Of a DNA stretch of 64,000 nt, positions 41,185 through 60,574 are shown piece after piece. The DNA lies in assembly GCF_029953285.1 (NCBI RefSeq), contig NZ_JASAOI010000028.1:124001-188000 (forward strand), written 5' to 3'. Below the pieces are notes generated by a model. That model did no database searches and was not told where the DNA came from. It worked only from the letters and a program-made list of their open reading frames with translations. The translations under genes were made by a program, and so were the position numbers. The stretch's first letter is position 1. Every line of letters begins with the position of its first letter. This DNA comes from Yinghuangia seranimata. GTDB lineage: Bacteria; Actinomycetota; Actinomycetes; Streptomycetales; Streptomycetaceae.

Positions 41185-41188
<4 letters not shown>
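39677..41188 (-). CDS. pep2: maltokinase (Pep2)
   Basis: A 503-residue aminoglycoside-phosphotransferase-like kinase that makes alpha-maltose-1-phosphate from maltose and ATP for GlgE. Visible features are [15 protein letters not shown] at the N-terminus, the catalytic loop [14 protein letters not shown] and the metal motif VLIDFEGEP. The GTG start overlaps the treS stop (GTGA), so translation is coupled. Codon 81 is a TTA leucine codon (40946-40948), implying need for the bldA tRNA. It is the same protein family that is sometimes fused to TreS in other genomes. Confidence 0.94.
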
Positions 41189-42875
<1,687 letters not shown>

Positions 42876-42879
<4 letters not shown>

Positions 42880-45017
42880 GGGTTGTTCCTCCGGACCGAG
42901 AAGAGATGCGCGGGTTCGAGTGCCGGGTCGAGCCGCACGTAGTTGTGCTGCCCCCAGCGGTAACTCGCCCCGGTGAACTCGTCGTGCACCGGGAAGGCGT
43001 CCTGCCAGTCCATCCCGAGGGAGGGCATGTCGAGGGACACCGTGGCCTCATGGACCGCGTGCGGGTCGAGGTTGACGACCACTACTACGAGATCCTCCGC
43101 GTCACCCGTGCGGGTCCGCTTCGAAAAGGCCATCACCGCATCGTTGTCGGTGTGATGGAATTTCAGGTTTCGCAGGTGTTGCAGCGCGGGATGGTGCCGC
43201 CGCACCCGGTTGAGCGTCGTGAGGTACGGGGCCAGGGTCCGCCCCTCGCGCTCCGCCGCGGCCCAGTCCCTGGGCCGGTACTGGTATTTCTCGGAGTCCA
43301 GGTACTCCTCGCTGCCCGGTGCCACCGCGAGGTGCTCGAACAGCTCGAAACCGGAGTACACGCCCCAGGTCGGGGACAGCGTGGCGGCCAGCAGCGCGCG
43401 GATCTTGAACGCCGCGGGGCCGCCGTACTGCAGCGACGCGTGCAGGATGTCCGGGGTGTTCACGAAGAAGTTCGGACGCATGTACGCGGCCGCGTCCCCG
43501 GACAGCTCGGTCAGGTACTCCTGCAGCTCGGCCTTGCCGGTGCGCCACGTGAAGTACGTGTAGGACTGCTGGAAGCCGATCTTCGCGAGCGTGTGCATCA
43601 TCGCCGGACGGGTGAACGCCTCGGCCAGGAAGATGACGTCGGGGTCGCGGCCGTTGACCTCCCCGATGACCTTCGCCCAGAAGTTCACCGGCTTGGTGTG
43701 CGGGTTGTCGACGCGGAAGACCCGCACGCCGTGCGCCATCCAGAAGCGCAGCACGCGCAGGGTCTCGCGGACGATCCCGTTGAAGTCCTCGTCGAAGTTG
43801 ACCGGGTAGATGTCCTGGTACTTCTTCGGCGGGTTCTCGGCGTACGCGATCGAGCCGTCGGCCCGGCGGGTGAACCACTCGGGGTGCTTCTGGACCCACG
43901 GGTGGTCGGGGGAGACCTGGAGCGCGAAGTCGAGGGCGACCTCCATGCGCAGCTCGCGGGCGCGCGCGACGAACGCGTCGAAGTCCTCGAGGGTGCCCAG
44001 GTCCGGGTGCACGGCGTCGTGCCCGCCCTCGGGTGAGCCGATCGCCCACGGCGAGCCGGGGTCGTGCGGGCCGGCGTCGAGCGAGTTGTTCGGCCCCTTG
44101 CGGAACGCGCTGCCGATCGGGTGAATCGGGGGCAGGTAGACGACGTCGAAGCCCATCGCGGCGATCGCCGGCAGCCGCTCCATCGCGGTCCGGAACGTGC
44201 CCGACCGCGGCGGCAGCACACCCGCCGGGTCGACCTCGGCACCCTCCGAACGGGGGAAGAACTCGTACCACGACCCGAACAGCGCACGCTGGCGCTCGAC
44301 CTGCAGCGGGAACCGCGCGCTGGACGTCACCAGGTCGCGCAGCGGGTGCGCGGCCAGTGCCGCGGTGACCGCCGAGGTGAACGCGCCGGCCAGCCGCTCC
44401 TGCGGGTCCAGCGCCTCGTTCCGCAGCGTGTCGACCGCTTCCAGGACCACGCCGCGGCCGCGCTTCGCCACCCCTTCGGCGGCACGCTCGAACAGCCGTG
44501 CGCCCTCTTCGAGCATCAACTCGGTGTCCAGGCCGGCCGGGACCTTGATGCCGGCCGCGTGCTTCCAGGTCGCGACCGGGTCGCTCCACGCCTCCACCGC
44601 GTACGACCACATGCCCTCGGCGGCCACCGTGACCTCGGCGTGCCAGCGGTCCGTGCCCGGCGCGCCCGGCGTCATCGGCAGGAACGCGCCCGCCCGGCCG
44701 CGCGGGTCGCGCAGCACGAGGTTGGCGTTGACCGCGTCGTGTCCTTCGCGGAACACCGTGGCGCTGATCTCGAACGCCTCGCCGACGACACAGCGCGCGG
44801 GGCGCGTGCCGCAGTCGACGAGGGGCTGCACGTCGAGGATGGGAATGCGACCGATCATCGGCTCCGGTCCTGCTGCGGTGGGGACGGAAACGGCTCGTTT
44901 TGCGGCGGATGCGGCGCCGCCGGAACGGGGCTTCCCGGTGGCCGCCTTGGGAGGGACGGAGGTCTCGCGAGGGGATCGGACCGTCCCGCCCGGACGCTTC
45001 CTGGCCGCACTGCCCAT
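42876..45017 (-). CDS. glgE: alpha-1,4-glucan:maltose-1-phosphate maltosyltransferase
   Basis: A 713-residue GH13_3 enzyme that adds maltosyl units from maltose-1-phosphate to alpha-glucan. The core starts at [17 protein letters not shown]; the nucleophile is in [15 protein letters not shown] and the acid/base in [13 protein letters not shown]. The ATG at 45017 is chosen because AGGAG lies seven bases upstream. It adds a 53-residue Ala/Lys/Arg/Pro-rich leader that most homologues have only in short form; the ATG at 44858 would give a 660-residue enzyme. First gene of the operon. Confidence 0.95.
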
Positions 45018-45410
45018 GCCCACGCTCCTGCTCGACTGCCCGGTTACGGCGACTGCGACACGTGCACTCACCCGCGCAGAGGAGGGCGAGGGGACGCGCT
45101 CATTCAACGATCACGACGGGGGGCGGGCACGGTCCAAACGGCGCAATTACCGCGGAATGACCAGCGGAATACGCCGATTGCCGGAAGCTCCGCCGCCGTT
45201 TCGGCCGGCGGACCCCGCCCGGAGAGCTCCGACGGCCGTTCCGTTGGGCATCCCGTTGTGCATGCCGATGGGCGTACCGCCCGGCAAGTGCCGCGCGGCC
45301 GCCGCCCGATGGGCGTACCTCGGGCGCTGCTGCAAGATCTTGCCATCCCTGCAAACACAACGCATCCACTGTCGCAAGTCATGCCGGGTTCCGGCTAGGG
45401 TCTGATGGCT
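45018..45410. promoter_or_regulatory. divergent promoter region between glgE and glgP
   Basis: 393 bases without a gene. At the glgP side a -35-like TCGCAA (45372-45377) and a -10-like TAGGGT (45396-45401) are 18 bases apart, placing transcription start at or next to the glgP start codon. At the glgE side only the ribosome site AGGAG is clear. I see no strong dyad. Confidence 0.55.
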
Positions 45411-51188: not shown

Positions 51189-52733
51189 TCACTCGGCCAC
51201 GTGGTCCCCGGCCGCCGCGGCCGCCGGGGCCTTGGCCGCGCGGAGCGTCGGCGGGAGGCCCGGGTTGCCGTCGTTGTCGCCGTTGACCATGTGCGTGTTG
51301 TTGGCGAACGTGCCGAGCGCGTACCCCATGAGCTTGCCGTTGAGCTCGAGGTAGTTCTTGTCGAGGTTCGCGTAGGTGTCGCACGCCGAGTGGTAGCACT
51401 TGTCGTACGCGACGCCCGCCGTGCCGCCGAACTTCGCGGCCTGGTCGGCGGTCTTGACGCCCTCGGCGCCGGTGAAGGTGCCGCCGGAGGGGACGCCCAC
51501 GGCGATGAACGGCCCGTAGTCGGAGCGGCCGTCGAAGTCGGTGCCCTCGTGCGGCTTGCCCTTGTTGTCGAGGTAGCCGTTGAGGAACGCCTCGATCTCG
51601 GCGGAGCCGGCCGGGCCTGCGGGCGAGCCCGCGTGGTCCGAGTCGTCGCCGTCGTACACGAACTCGGCGGAGTTCGGCGACGCGATCATGTCGAAGTTCA
51701 GGTACAGCGCGATCTTGCGCTGGTCGGCGGGCGCGAGCGAGTCGACGTACGCCTGCGAGCCGAGCAGTCCGAACTCCTCGCCCGACCACCACGCGAAGCG
51801 CAGCTTGTTGGCCGGCCGGTCCTCGATCTTGCCGAGCTGGATGGCGGCCTCGATCAGCGCGGCGCTGCCGGAGCCGTTGTCGTTGATGCCCGGGCCCGCG
51901 GCGACCGAGTCGAGGTGCGCGCCGGCCATGACCACGTTGTCCTCGTCGCCCCACTTGGACTCGGCGATGACGTTGGTGGTCTTGCGCTGCTCGCGCAGCT
52001 GGCGCAGTTCGAGCGTGATCGTGACCGGTCCGGAGGCGGCCTGGGCGGCGAGCGCCTCACCGGCCTCCTGGGTGATGCCGCCGGTCGGGACGATGCCCGC
52101 CGCCGGGTCTCCGAGCGTGCCGTTGAGGTCGCCGGGGACGCGGTTGTATATGACCGCGGCGATGGCGCCGGCGCCGGCCGCGGTGGCCTGCTTCTGGGCG
52201 AACGTGCAGCCGCCGCGCTTGATGAGCGCTATCTTCCCGGCGTAGTTGCCGGTCGCGTAGTCGGCCGGGTCGCAGCCGTACGTCGCGTCGGCGTCGTCGG
52301 CGGGGACCACCGCGATCTGCCCGGTGATGCCGCCGACCGGGGTGGACGGCGAGTACGACATGACCTTGATCGGCACGTCCGAGGGCGCCGGCGAAACGAC
52401 CTTGAGGGTCTCGGCCAGCGTCTCGGTGTACGTGAACTCGAACTCCTGGCGGGTGACCAGGTAGCCGGCGTCGTACAGCGCCTCGTCGACGTAGTCCGCC
52501 GAGGCGTTGTGCCCGGGGGAGCCGGCGACGCGCGTGCCGTTGTTGTTGTCCGCGATCTTCTGAAGTGCCTTGAGGTGCTTCAGTATCTTGTCCGCCGTGA
52601 CCTTCTTGGCGACCATGTCGCCGAGCTTGGCGTCGTCGTGCGGGTGGGCGGCCGCGGGGGTTACCGCAAGGCCGACCAGCGCGAAGCCCGCCAGAGTGGC
52701 GGTCAGGGCCCGGCCGAGGTGACGGTGCGTCAT
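51189..52733 (-). CDS. secreted M28-family aminopeptidase with PA domain
   Basis: A 514-residue exported zinc aminopeptidase of the S. griseus aminopeptidase/Leu-aminopeptidase type. The signal peptide spans 1-29 (ends PAAA-HPHDD). A protease-associated domain (about 125-225, with GKIALIKRGGCTFAQK) is inserted before the catalytic core. Metal ligands are visible in AGAHLDSV, INDNGSGS, WSGEEFGLLGS, LNFDMIAS and YHSACDT. It cleaves hydrophobic N-terminal residues of peptides outside the cell. No strong ribosome site precedes the ATG at 52733. Confidence 0.94.
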   Translation of the reverse strand: MTHRHLGRALTATLAGFALVGLAVTPAAAHPHDDAKLGDMVAKKVTADKILKHLKALQKIADNNNGTRVAGSPGHNASADYVDEALYDAGYLVTRQEFEFTYTETLAETLKVVSPAPSDVPIKVMSYSPSTPVGGITGQIAVVPADDADATYGCDPADYATGNYAGKIALIKRGGCTFAQKQATAAGAGAIAAVIYNRVPGDLNGTLGDPAAGIVPTGGITQEAGEALAAQAASGPVTITLELRQLREQRKTTNVIAESKWGDEDNVVMAGAHLDSVAAGPGINDNGSGSAALIEAAIQLGKIEDRPANKLRFAWWSGEEFGLLGSQAYVDSLAPADQRKIALYLNFDMIASPNSAEFVYDGDDSDHAGSPAGPAGSAEIEAFLNGYLDNKGKPHEGTDFDGRSDYGPFIAVGVPSGGTFTGAEGVKTADQAAKFGGTAGVAYDKCYHSACDTYANLDKNYLELNGKLMGYALGTFANNTHMVNGDNDGNPGLPPTLRAAKAPAAAAAGDHVAE

Positions 52734-53242: not shown

Positions 53243-56059
53243 TCAGGGCTTCGCGCGGGCGACGTCGGCCCACTGCAGGATGCCGTCGGCGTACGCGCTG
53301 TCGAGGCCGGTCAGCGCGTCCTTGACGTGCACCGCGTTGAGCGAGATCCGGCCGTAGACCCACCACGGCGGGTCGTTGTTCAGGGCGGCGAGCAGCGTCG
53401 CGTACGCGGTCTTGCGGGCCTGGTCGGACGTGGCCGAGCGGACGGCGGTCCAGGCGGCGTCGACGGCGGCGTCCTGGTAACCGGACGGGCTGACGCCGCC
53501 GCGGGTCTGCGTGTACAGCCACGTGGTGATGTCGGGGCCGGTCGCGTACGTCCAGATGGCGTCGTACTGCCGCGTGGCCATCAACTGGTCGTACTGCTGG
53601 CTGACCTGGACGGTCATCGTGACGTTCCGGTAGCGCGCGAGCTGGGCCTTGGCCGCCTCCATCGTCGACTGCTCGTTGGCGCCGCAGACCACGGTGAACG
53701 CCAACGGCTTTCCCTCAGCGGCGAGTTGGTCGAGCAGGCGCTGCGCCTCGGTGGCGTCCTTGGCCGGCTGCTGCGGCAGGCCCTCGCTCACCGGTGAGTC
53801 CGACGGGACGACGCTCGTGGAGACGGTGACACCGCTCTGCGCGCTCCTGGCCAGCGCGTCCGCGTCCAGCGCGAGGGCGACCGCCTTACGGGCGCGCGGG
53901 TCGTCGAACGGGGCGCGACCGGCGTTGAACGTCATCATGATGCCGCCCGGCTCCGTCGTCGGCCGCAGCTCCAGCCCCGCCGAACGGGCCTGCGCGACAT
54001 CGCGGTTGGCGCTCTGGAAGTTCAGGTCGGCAGTGCGCGCGATTACCGGGGCGACCGGCTGGTCGCTGTCGACGGCGAAGACCAGCGTGTCCAGGTACGG
54101 CTTGTCGGGGCCCCGCCAGTAGTCGGTGTTGCGGACGAACGTCTGCTTCCTGCCGCGCTCCCAGCTCTGCAGCTTGAACGGCCCGGCGCCCACCGGGTTC
54201 GCGCCGAAGCCGGACGGGTCCTTGCGGACGGCGGTCGGCGAGGCGACGTACGACAGGTCGGACGCCAGCAGGTGGTCGAACGTCAGGTCCGGGTACGGCA
54301 GCGTGATGCTCAGGTGCGTCGGGTCCACGACCCGCGTCGTGAGGCCACGCACCGCGCCCGCGTGCACGGACTTGACCGCGGGGTCGGCGAACCGGTCCCA
54401 GTTGAACTTGACCGCGTCGGCGTCGAGCGTGCTGCCGTCGGAGAAGCGGACGCCCGGCCGCAGTTCGAGCGTCCACGTGAAGCCGTCGGGGCTCGACGTG
54501 AGGCCCTTCGCGAGGAACGGTGTGACCTTGCCGGTGGACGGGGTGAAGACGACCAGCGGGTCGTACAGCGCCGACATGCGCTGGCCGTCGCCGAACGGGC
54601 GGTAGGAGACCCCGGCAGGGTCGAGCGACGTGGAGTCGGCGTTGATCGACACCGTGACGGTCCCGCCCCGCTGCGGCGGGAGCGCGGGGGTGTTCGGCCC
54701 CGACGAGTTCTCGGCCTGGCCGCCCTTGTCCTTGTTGACCAGCAGCGCGGTGAGGGTGCCGAGACCCGCCAGCACGCCCAGCGCGGTCACGACAATGAGC
54801 GGGACCCACACGCGACTGCCGCCGGGCAATCGGTCGAGCCGCCGCCGGGCCGGCGGGGCGGGCGGCGGGTACAGGTGCAGCGGGGGCAGCGAGTGGGGGA
54901 CGGACGACGGCGGGGGAGGCACGGGCACCGCGTCCGGATAGCCGGAGGCGTCATGCGGCCACGGCGGGGGCGTGGTGGACGGGGGAGGCGGCGGAACGGG
55001 GGCGGGCACGGCGTCCGGGAAACCGGAGACCCGGTTGCGCCACGACGACGTGGATGCGGGGGAGTCTGCGGCGGTGGTGGTGCCGGGCGGGGTGAGGCCG
55101 GGGCCGGTGAGGCCCGGTCCGGTGAGGTCGGGTTCGGTGAGGTCGGGTTCGGTGCGGTCGGGCGAGGCGCCGACCGCCGTCGCACGGGCCAACTCCTGTG
55201 CCTGACTGCGCCGTTCCGCGATCGACGCCAGCACCGCCGGGGGCAGCCAGTCACCCGCCGGGCCCTCCGACAGCGCATGCACCAGGTCCATCGGCCGCGG
55301 CCGCTCCGCGGGATCCTTGGCCAGGCACGAGGCGACGATGTCGCGCAACTCGTCCGGCAGCCCCGCCAGTTCCGGCTGCTGGTGCACCACCCGGAACAGC
55401 ATCGCCTGCGCCGACCCGCTCCCGAACGGCGCCAGCCCGGCCGCCGCACACAACACCGCCCCGAGCGCGAACACGTCGGCGGCGGGCGTGATCCGGTCCG
55501 CGAGCAACTGCTCCGGCGAGAGGAACCCGACCGAACCGACCATGAACCCGGTGCGGGTGACCGTCGAGCCCTCCAACGCCCGCGCGATCCCGAAGTCGAT
55601 GACGCGCGGCCCGTCCTCGGCCAGCAGGATGTTCGACGGCTTGAGGTCCCGGTGGATCAGCCCGCACGCGTGGATGGCCTCCAACGCCTCGGCGAGACCC
55701 GCCCCGAGCACCCGCAACGCGTGAACGGGGAACGCGCCGTGCGCACGTACAGCCTCTTCCAACGACGGCCCCGGGATGTACTCGGTGACCATCCACGCCG
55801 GCGTCGCATCGGCGTCGGCCGCGACGACAGCCGCGGTATGGAAGGCACTGACCCGCCGCGAAGCATCCACCTCACGCCGGAACCGCACCCGGAAGTCGTC
55901 GTCCCCCGACAACTCGGCGCGCACCGTCTTGACGGCCACCAGCCGCCCACTCGCCGACCGCCCGAGGAACACCTCCCCCATCCCCCCGGCCCCGAGCCGC
56001 GCGACGGTCCGATACCCCCCGACCTCCCGCGGATCCCCGGCCCGCAGTTCCTGGATCAC
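53243..56059 (-). CDS. Ser/Thr protein kinase fused to a family-5 ABC solute-binding domain
   Basis: A 938-residue receptor-like protein. Residues 14-275 form a Hanks-type kinase: RLGAGGMGEVFLG, invariant Lys44 in VAVK, catalytic loop HRDLKPSN (136-143), DFG (155-157), SPEQ. Then come a Pro/Thr-rich linker (295-405) with pentapeptide repeats, one membrane helix (about 418-441), and an outside domain (about 465-938) of the oligopeptide/nickel SBP_bac_5 type (GGTVTVSINADSTSLDP ... GAGPFKLQSWERG ... YWRGPDKPYLDTLVF). A peptide or small ligand bound outside could control phosphorylation inside. No ABC permease is adjacent. It starts at GTG. Confidence 0.92.
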   Translation of the reverse strand: MIQELRAGDPREVGGYRTVARLGAGGMGEVFLGRSASGRLVAVKTVRAELSGDDDFRVRFRREVDASRRVSAFHTAAVVAADADATPAWMVTEYIPGPSLEEAVRAHGAFPVHALRVLGAGLAEALEAIHACGLIHRDLKPSNILLAEDGPRVIDFGIARALEGSTVTRTGFMVGSVGFLSPEQLLADRITPAADVFALGAVLCAAAGLAPFGSGSAQAMLFRVVHQQPELAGLPDELRDIVASCLAKDPAERPRPMDLVHALSEGPAGDWLPPAVLASIAERRSQAQELARATAVGASPDRTEPDLTEPDLTGPGLTGPGLTPPGTTTAADSPASTSSWRNRVSGFPDAVPAPVPPPPPSTTPPPWPHDASGYPDAVPVPPPPSSVPHSLPPLHLYPPPAPPARRRLDRLPGGSRVWVPLIVVTALGVLAGLGTLTALLVNKDKGGQAENSSGPNTPALPPQRGGTVTVSINADSTSLDPAGVSYRPFGDGQRMSALYDPLVVFTPSTGKVTPFLAKGLTSSPDGFTWTLELRPGVRFSDGSTLDADAVKFNWDRFADPAVKSVHAGAVRGLTTRVVDPTHLSITLPYPDLTFDHLLASDLSYVASPTAVRKDPSGFGANPVGAGPFKLQSWERGRKQTFVRNTDYWRGPDKPYLDTLVFAVDSDQPVAPVIARTADLNFQSANRDVAQARSAGLELRPTTEPGGIMMTFNAGRAPFDDPRARKAVALALDADALARSAQSGVTVSTSVVPSDSPVSEGLPQQPAKDATEAQRLLDQLAAEGKPLAFTVVCGANEQSTMEAAKAQLARYRNVTMTVQVSQQYDQLMATRQYDAIWTYATGPDITTWLYTQTRGGVSPSGYQDAAVDAAWTAVRSATSDQARKTAYATLLAALNNDPPWWVYGRISLNAVHVKDALTGLDSAYADGILQWADVARAKP
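55091..55165. repeat. five 15-bp tandem repeats in the kinase linker
   Basis: The unit GGTGAGGTCGGGTTC with variants is repeated five times in frame, coding (on the minus strand) for EPDLT/GPGLT pentapeptides just after the kinase domain. Unit number probably varies between strains. Confidence 0.9.
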
Positions 56060-57379: not shown

Positions 57380-58159
57380 TCATCCCTCCAGGAGGCGGGC
57401 GCGCAGCGCGTCGATCGCGGACTGGGGGACGCCCATGCCGTCGAGGACGTAGCGCTCGACCGAGCCGTACATCTCGTCGACGGTACGGAACGCGGTGTCG
57501 AGGTACTCCTGACGGACCGAGAACATCGGGCGCAGGTGCTCGGGGTCGAAGCCGCGCTCGGCGATCACCTCGAGGATGCGGCTGTTCTTGCCGTGCAGGT
57601 GCTTCGCGCTGTCGAGGTAGTCCTCGAGGATCGCGGCGCGCGGCACGCCGAGGAGGGTGAGGAGCACGGCCGACGTCCAGCCGGTGCGGTCCTTGCCCTG
57701 CGAGCAGTGGAACACCACGCCCCGCTCGGCCTCGGCCATGCGCGTGAAGACCGCGCGGTAGGCCTCGCGCGCGAGCTCGGTGGCGACGAAGCGCCGGTAG
57801 ACCTCGCTCATCAGGTCGATGCCGGCCTGCCCGCCGAGGATCTCGCCCGCGCGCTTGGGGTCGGCGAAGACGTCGCCGAAGAGCTCGTTGTTGCCGTGCC
57901 CCATGACGTCGGCGACGAGCAGTTCGACGCCGTCGGGGAGCCGGTCGGGCTCGTTCTCGCGCTCGTGCTCGGAGCGCAGGTCGCAGACGAGGCCGATGCC
58001 GAGGCGTACGAGGGTGTCGGTGTCGGCGGCGTCCAGCTCGGCGAGGCCGTCGGAGCGGAAGACCAGCCCGGTGCGGACCTTGCGCCCATCGGCGGTCGCG
58101 TGGCCGCCCGCGTCGCGGAAGTTCGGCGCGGTGGTCAGGATCGGCGTGGGCGTGGTCAT
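57380..58159 (-). CDS. tyrosine-protein phosphatase, MPtpB/Y_phosphatase3 type
   Basis: A 259-residue phosphatase with the N-terminal NFRDAGGHATADGRKVRTGLVFRSDGL, diagnostic of this class, and the active-site loop HCSQGKDRTG (Cys-x5-Arg). These enzymes act on phosphotyrosine, phosphoserine or phosphoinositides, and some are exported; no signal peptide is present here. It is convergent with the AbiEi-like gene (four bases between stops) and lies downstream of glgX on the same strand after 150 bases. A functional partner of the nearby kinase is possible but unsupported. Confidence 0.92.
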   Translation of the reverse strand: MTTPTPILTTAPNFRDAGGHATADGRKVRTGLVFRSDGLAELDAADTDTLVRLGIGLVCDLRSEHERENEPDRLPDGVELLVADVMGHGNNELFGDVFADPKRAGEILGGQAGIDLMSEVYRRFVATELAREAYRAVFTRMAEAERGVVFHCSQGKDRTGWTSAVLLTLLGVPRAAILEDYLDSAKHLHGKNSRILEVIAERGFDPEHLRPMFSVRQEYLDTAFRTVDEMYGSVERYVLDGMGVPQSAIDALRARLLEG

Positions 58160-58309
58160 AAAGGTGGTACTCCGTTCAGGCGAAGAGCCGCGGGCGTTCC
58201 CTACCAGGGTGACACCCCGTTCCCGGGCGTGCCGCACGGCCCCTACGGCGCCGTATGCAACCCGGGCGGGGCGTCCGGCGGATGTGACGGACGCCACGGG
58301 ACGGCCCGG

Positions 58310-60574
<2,265 letters not shown>

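Follow-up and report, generated by a model that had tools for sequence, protein, structure and literature searches.

A putative receptor Ser/Thr kinase of Yinghuangia with an SBP_bac_5-type solute-binding protein as its outside domain

The window, a stretch of 64,000 nucleotides from the 9.8-Mb genome of a member of the genus Yinghuangia (Y. seranimata), encodes a 938-residue chain that combines an N-terminal Hanks-type Ser/Thr kinase domain with a C-terminal solute-binding protein (SBP) domain of the SBP_bac_5 family. Based on its sequence, the protein is probably a true and functional receptor kinase. The interpretation that we consider likely is that of a ligand-gated, single-pass receptor Ser/Thr kinase, a variant of the SBP kinases in which the sensor belongs to cluster C of the solute-binding proteins.

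Architecture of the kinase-SBP chain

The gene and its parts are as follows, with residues numbered from the GTG start.

53243..56059, minus strand: whole gene, receptor Ser/Thr kinase with SBP_bac_5 outside domain (open reading frame, Pfam, orthologues in the other two Yinghuangia genomes)
55277..56014, minus strand: Hanks-type kinase domain, residues 16-261 (Pfam Pkinase, E 8.1e-40; alignment with PknA and PknB)
54809..55264, minus strand: proline-rich linker, residues 266-417, 25% proline (hydropathy and sequence; orthologues differ in length and sequence)
54740..54808, minus strand: single predicted transmembrane helix, approximately residues 418-440, with arginines on its N-terminal (inside) flank (hydropathy)
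53246..54670, minus strand: outside solute-binding domain, residues 464-938 (Pfam, structure model, fold matches)
53534..54529, minus strand: Pfam core of SBP_bac_5, residues 511-842 (E 3.8e-61)

The reading frame contains a single stop, which is terminal. A GAGGGGG stretch ends 7 bases upstream of the start codon, and the GC content at codon positions 1, 2 and 3 is 0.70, 0.55 and 0.94, respectively. The whole chain is conserved in both other Yinghuangia genomes, with identities of 57% and 63% over the alignment, indicating that the fusion is not a product of chance. A preliminary description, made from the letters of the window, had proposed that an intact Hanks kinase, a single membrane helix and a full SBP_bac_5 domain lie in one chain of this length, and Pfam, hydropathy and the alignments bear this out.

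The kinase domain aligns with PknA over residues 14-255 and with PknB over residues 20-254. It contains the full motif set of a receptor Hanks Ser/Thr kinase: the G-loop GAGGMG (23-28), K44, E63, HRD (136-138), K140, N143, DFG (155-157) and the APE-like SPE (181-183). The activation loop is of the form VTxT (T168, T170). The claim that all catalytic kinase residues are present was thus upheld by the sequence as well as by the alignment with PknA and PknB.

The linker from kinase to helix measures 156, 181 and 250 residues in the three orthologues, and its identity among them is 38-45%, compared to 81-84% for the kinases. The hydrophobic segment that follows (ARRRLDRLPGGSRVW...) has arginines on its N-terminal flank. 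The 19-residue hydropathy maximum lies at residues 422-440 (Kyte-Doolittle 2.2), and after residue 270 no other segment exceeds 1.6 on this scale, so that hydropathy predicts one transmembrane helix between the kinase and the outside domain, the latter being reached through a short stalk. The topology predicted from this hydropathy profile has the kinase inside and the SBP domain outside the cell.

Two checks that the preliminary description had proposed for the C-terminal region, a domain search for SBP_bac_5 and a structure prediction, both recovered a solute-binding protein. The Pfam match covers profile positions 1-349 of 368 and scored 207.7 bits against a curated cut-off of 32.4. The outside domain was modeled from a 31-row alignment in which the domains of the window gene and of both orthologues were combined with 28 free-standing SBPs related to them (3 of the 28 are partial and one of these is a copy of part of another, leaving 27 distinct relatives). 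This model had a pLDDT of 93.9 and a pTM of 0.91; a model made free of an alignment reached a pLDDT of only 37. Comparison by Foldseek and VIA-align 2 gave full-length matches to solute-binding proteins of cluster C. The best match was 5u4o (Z 35.5, 456 of 478 residues, rmsd 3.5), followed by GsiB (1uqw, Z 34.9), CtaP, NikZ, AapF, AppA and DppA, with the matches to 5u4o, GsiB, NikZ, AppA and DppA spanning approximately 450-470 residues. The cluster-C fold therefore extends across the whole outside domain.

The ligands in the matched structure entries are peptides, nickel chelates, opines, glutathione, heme and sialic acid. The shared fold does not name the ligand of the window protein; going by the fold, it may be a peptide, a peptide-like molecule, a metal chelate or a similar compound. 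A possible equivalence of D843 with the amine-binding aspartate of OppA was dropped because the phmmer alignment was weak and left the two residues unpaired.

Locus, divergence and distribution

The fusion is found at the same locus in all three Yinghuangia genomes, that of the window included, and in each it lies between glgX/treX and a glgP-glgE-treS-mak cluster. The order in the block is glgX/treX, a Y_phosphatase3 gene, an opposite-strand gene and the kinase, followed by a 152-aa gene, an Abhydrolase_8 gene, glgP (opposite strand), glgE, treS and the maltokinase gene; Y. soli has insertions within the block. The following neighbors in the window serve as context.

58310..60574, minus strand: glycogen debranching enzyme GlgX/TreX (above the cut-off of NCBIfam TIGR02100)
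57380..58177, minus strand: Y_phosphatase3 family phosphatase, upstream neighbor (kept in all three genomes, at a distance of some 9 kb in Y. soli)
51189..52733, minus strand: M28 peptidase with PA domain, next gene downstream (domain scan; in the window and in Y. soli)
42876..45107, minus strand: GlgE maltosyltransferase (family models)
41185..42879: treS, with the maltokinase gene and glgB behind (order compared for glgE-treS-mak)

The identities of GlgE, TreS, GlgX and GlgB in the window were confirmed with family models, and the order glgE-treS-mak is kept in all three genomes. The Y_phosphatase3 phosphatase is a possible antagonist of the kinase. The M28 peptidase was considered as a fixed partner and rejected, there being no match to it at the locus in the third genome (G002). 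No ABC gene was detected among the 19 open reading frames of the window that were scanned (37.2-63.8 kb; some of these are antisense frames), and the earlier statement that no ABC permease lies nearby holds for this set.

To place the fused SBP domain, a tree was built from 28 of the 31 aligned sequences, the three partial rows having been dropped. In this tree the fused domains cluster together (100/100) and are placed among free-standing members of their SBP family (92/92). Of the 52 positions at which the 27 distinct free relatives show 90% conservation or more, the fused SBPs retain 41. Within the D-x-E-P motif of these relatives, D843 (25 of 27) is kept, and E845 (25 of 27) and P846 (27 of 27) are replaced in all three fused SBPs. 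All three share W870, at a position where every one of the 27 free relatives has leucine.

The domains of the chain differ in their rate of change. Between the window and Y. soli, identity is 83% for the kinase and 49% for the fused SBP, compared to 85% and 81% for two free SBPs (L049 and L051), the only controls, whose best matches we assume to be orthologues; the third genome has no near match to either control (39%). The NG86 dN/dS ratio is lowest in the kinase (0.13-0.16) and higher in both the linker (0.54-0.85) and the SBP domain (0.60-0.82), although these values are rough because dS is 0.56-0.90 in the kinase and SBP parts. Judged by the sequence identities, the sensor domain is changing much faster than the two transport-type relatives compared. 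This rapid divergence may stem from a change in specificity, from the domain being freed of a permease or from the beginning of decay, and the highest SBP ratio of 0.82, from one pair, could alternatively mean that binding is being lost.

We searched for the fusion outside the genus with a profile made from the three orthologues. Scoring the best 8 candidates of each genome at E <= 1e-110, we found no match spanning both domains in the 98 other family genomes; the 196 other genomes of the class, with the best 4 candidates of each scored at E <= 1e-95, likewise gave none. A search with the SBP part in 197 genomes of the class (best 8, E <= 1e-72) yielded the window gene and 8 further matches, which come from 3 genomes; no open frame among these 8 appears fused, their lengths being 549-638 aa, plus one of 1011 aa in which no kinase motif was seen. 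Scoring covered every candidate, or 150 of 152, for four 11-12-Mb genomes that represent another genus of the family, and in these a kinase and an SBP_bac_5 match (E <= 1e-60) never occurred in one gene. Among the best candidates searched, the SBP_bac_5 fusion turned up solely in Yinghuangia, and it may perhaps be absent elsewhere.

Other sensor kinases and known systems

We surveyed the C-terminal parts of 63 kinases of the genome, namely the window gene and 62 further kinase open reading frames (two short kinase fragments, C31:13162 and C110:169000, were left out). Matches to PQQ_2 were found in 12 of the 63 and to WD40 in 4. An SBP-like domain is present in at least four: the window gene (SBP_bac_5), L002 (SBP_bac_8/SBP_bac_1), L006 (Peripla_BP_6) and the 1604-aa L070, in which Pfam missed the domain but phmmer paired it with the one in L002 (E 2e-64). 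The count of four is a minimum, since other classes were sought only by way of the 25 commonest Pfam families and ten single scans. At least 7 of 61 family genomes (G000, G001, G010, G024, G039, G047 and G051) contain full-length fusions of a kinase with Peripla_BP_6.

A kinase tree was built from 29 rows, 24 of the 62 paralogues (those with at least 44% identity) and 5 further sequences, with bootstrap support that was not settled. We looked in this tree for a clade of SBP-bearing kinases and did not find one, these kinases lying in an unresolved comb. Nearest to the window kinase and its two orthologues, with moderate support (95/77), is a PP2C-bearing kinase. This paralogue (L007, G000:C22:40608-41390) has the kinase and a PP2C phosphatase domain in one chain.

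Several features of the other sensor kinases and SBPs were observed in the course of the survey. At one site (L114, G000:C73:204000-220000), some 9 kb separates two kinases whose outside domains are SBP_bac_8-like, and the 1604-aa kinase of this pair has some 900 proline-rich residues between the kinase and a membrane-like segment near residue 1164. Twin-arginine-like membrane segments are found in many receptor kinases, for example VSRRRFIAIGSAAATVAAGGG, LTRRRLLIGGTAAG and VNRRRFLTWAAGG; they occur in L002, L006, L070 and other kinases of the same genome as well as in S. cadmiisoli (L044:6001-10478). A loose twin-arginine pattern, applied without a shuffled control, flags 26 of the 63 kinases, in 17 of which the hydropathy of the segment is below 2.0. 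All three other SBP-bearing kinases are among those flagged. The pattern does not flag the window kinase, and it flags neither orthologue at the helix, although in the orthologues RR-A/V-W immediately precedes the helix. Such segments suggest that folded C-terminal sensor domains may be exported by the Tat route from an internal signal anchor. Elsewhere (L115:3335-12575, G000:C16), five tandem SBP_bac_5 genes on the same strand stand behind two Opp-type ATPase genes, which is more binding proteins than a single importer would require.

The joining of a kinase and an SBP in a single polypeptide is already known. A 2018 mBio paper (PMC6069109) gives MSMEG_1200 as an example and states that InterPro lists a further 260 such proteins; the window protein shares this plan and is in that sense an SBP kinase. 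Its Discussion does not give the SBP class of the 260 entries, and SBP_bac_5 cases are possibly included. Against the NCBI model for StpK7/MSMEG_1200, the window protein scored 107 bits (cut-off 900), through its kinase part alone. We found no description of the SBP_bac_5 version in the open full-text literature, to which the search extended, and this version may not have been described. The preliminary description had pointed to this architecture in Streptomyces database entries. Such entries exist in S. cadmiisoli, where NCBI calls the protein 'bifunctional serine/threonine-protein kinase/ABC transporter substrate-binding protein', but the two examined (WP_112443064.1 and WP_112443384.1), which likewise consist of kinase, linker, membrane segment and SBP, carry Peripla_BP_6, another SBP class, together with a twin-arginine-like membrane segment, and are encoded by tandem genes. 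By its sequence, the SBP class of the window gene sets it apart from these two cases.

The window protein also differs from better known kinases and SBPs. It shares the kinase fold and the VTxT loop with AfsK and with PknB-type PASTA kinases, PknB having a single helix. Nonetheless, it scored 185.5 bits against the NCBIfam model for PASTA kinases (PknB/Stk1; cut-off 450), in the kinase part only, and 304.7 bits against that for AfsK (cut-off 1300), over residues 3-317 only; the protein has no Pfam match to PASTA and no beta-propeller match. The outside domain has the fold of GsiB, NikA, DppA and OppA over its whole length, but unlike these proteins it is joined to a kinase, has no visible lipoprotein or secretion signal, and has an altered D-x-E-P motif. 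A precedent for an SBP that informs a Ser/Thr kinase of a ligand outside the cell is the GlnH-GlnX-PknG model of mycobacteria and corynebacteria, as set out in PMC6069109, and this supports the receptor reading. There, however, three separate proteins are involved, PknG is without a transmembrane helix, and GlnH binds amino acids of the aspartate/glutamate type.

Proposed mechanism and alternative readings

In the mechanism that we favor, the N-terminal kinase domain would reside in the cytoplasm and the C-terminal cluster-C domain outside, where it would close on a small ligand. The signal would then more likely be carried by ligand-dependent dimerization or clustering than by a rigid rotation transmitted along the helix, given that the linker is long and varies in length and sequence among the orthologues. 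Dimerization would in turn raise trans-autophosphorylation of the VTxT loop. In the simplest history, transport-type SBPs of the same family would have supplied the binding domain in a single recruitment that preceded the split of the genus, and the domain would then have diverged in a direction of its own. The earlier proposal that the domain was turned from transport to sensing fits the following evidence: the result for the 19 open reading frames, the lack of a cysteine near the start of the outside domain, the anchor provided by the protein's own helix, the altered E-P and the divergence, faster than that of two free SBPs.

A potential concern is whether the gene might still take part in transport, delivering ligand to the permease of a transporter under the control of its kinase. 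The usual role of SBP_bac_5 proteins is in ABC importers, and the genome has Opp-type ATPases beside free SBPs. An SBP of an ABC importer would have its own secretion or lipoprotein signal and ABC genes alongside. The only cysteine of the outside domain is C792, with none near the domain start, and neither a signal (by cysteine positions) nor an ABC gene (among the 19 frames, 37.2-63.8 kb) was seen; with the D-x-E-P motif of the free relatives also altered, we regard a transport role as highly improbable. A second concern arises from the rapid change of the SBP domain, which might be a decaying passenger, left by an accidental fusion and losing its binding function. The dN/dS ratios and the identity of 49%, compared to 81-85% for the free SBPs, are what such decay would produce. 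On the other hand, the frame is intact in all three genomes, the fold is predicted with high confidence, W870 is common to all three and P846 replaced in all three, and the control is small, consisting of two free SBPs with no near match in the third genome. Decay thus appears quite improbable. It is also conceivable that the outside domain is an adhesive or localizing module that docks a constitutively active kinase on cell-wall material or on another protein, such as an Opp-type permease whose gene lies elsewhere. The flexible proline linker fits tethering better than switching, and many SBP_bac_5 proteins, as well as Opp-type ATPases (at one site), are encoded elsewhere in the genome. A complete two-lobed fold with 41 of 52 conserved positions exceeds the needs of a mere anchor, however, and this docking role is in our view unlikely.

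Under the receptor reading, the output of the kinase may be considered in light of its neighbors. According to a review (PMC11046441), GlgE is switched down through phosphorylation by PknB, and the review describes the control of this step as unclear. The same position beside glgX and glgP/glgE-treS-mak in all three genomes raises the idea that the kinase could make the phosphorylation state of the adjacent GlgE alpha-glucan pathway depend on a ligand outside the cell. The link between the pathway and the kinase is one of position, and we hold this coupling to be doubtful. If true, a recently captured and fast-changing domain of the peptide/nickel type would be the missing input to a carbon-storage switch.

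Ligands are known for few of the receptor Ser/Thr kinases of bacteria. Identification of the stimuli is named as an outstanding question in PMC6069109. The outside domain of the window kinase belongs to a family whose ligands can be discovered by standard binding screens, making the stimulus of this receptor kinase directly testable, and the worth of this cluster-C variant, which belongs to a type of kinase that is known but has received little study, lies in this testability. Taken with the three further kinases of the genome that bear other SBP classes, it points to a single kinase chassis fitted with interchangeable nutrient sensors.
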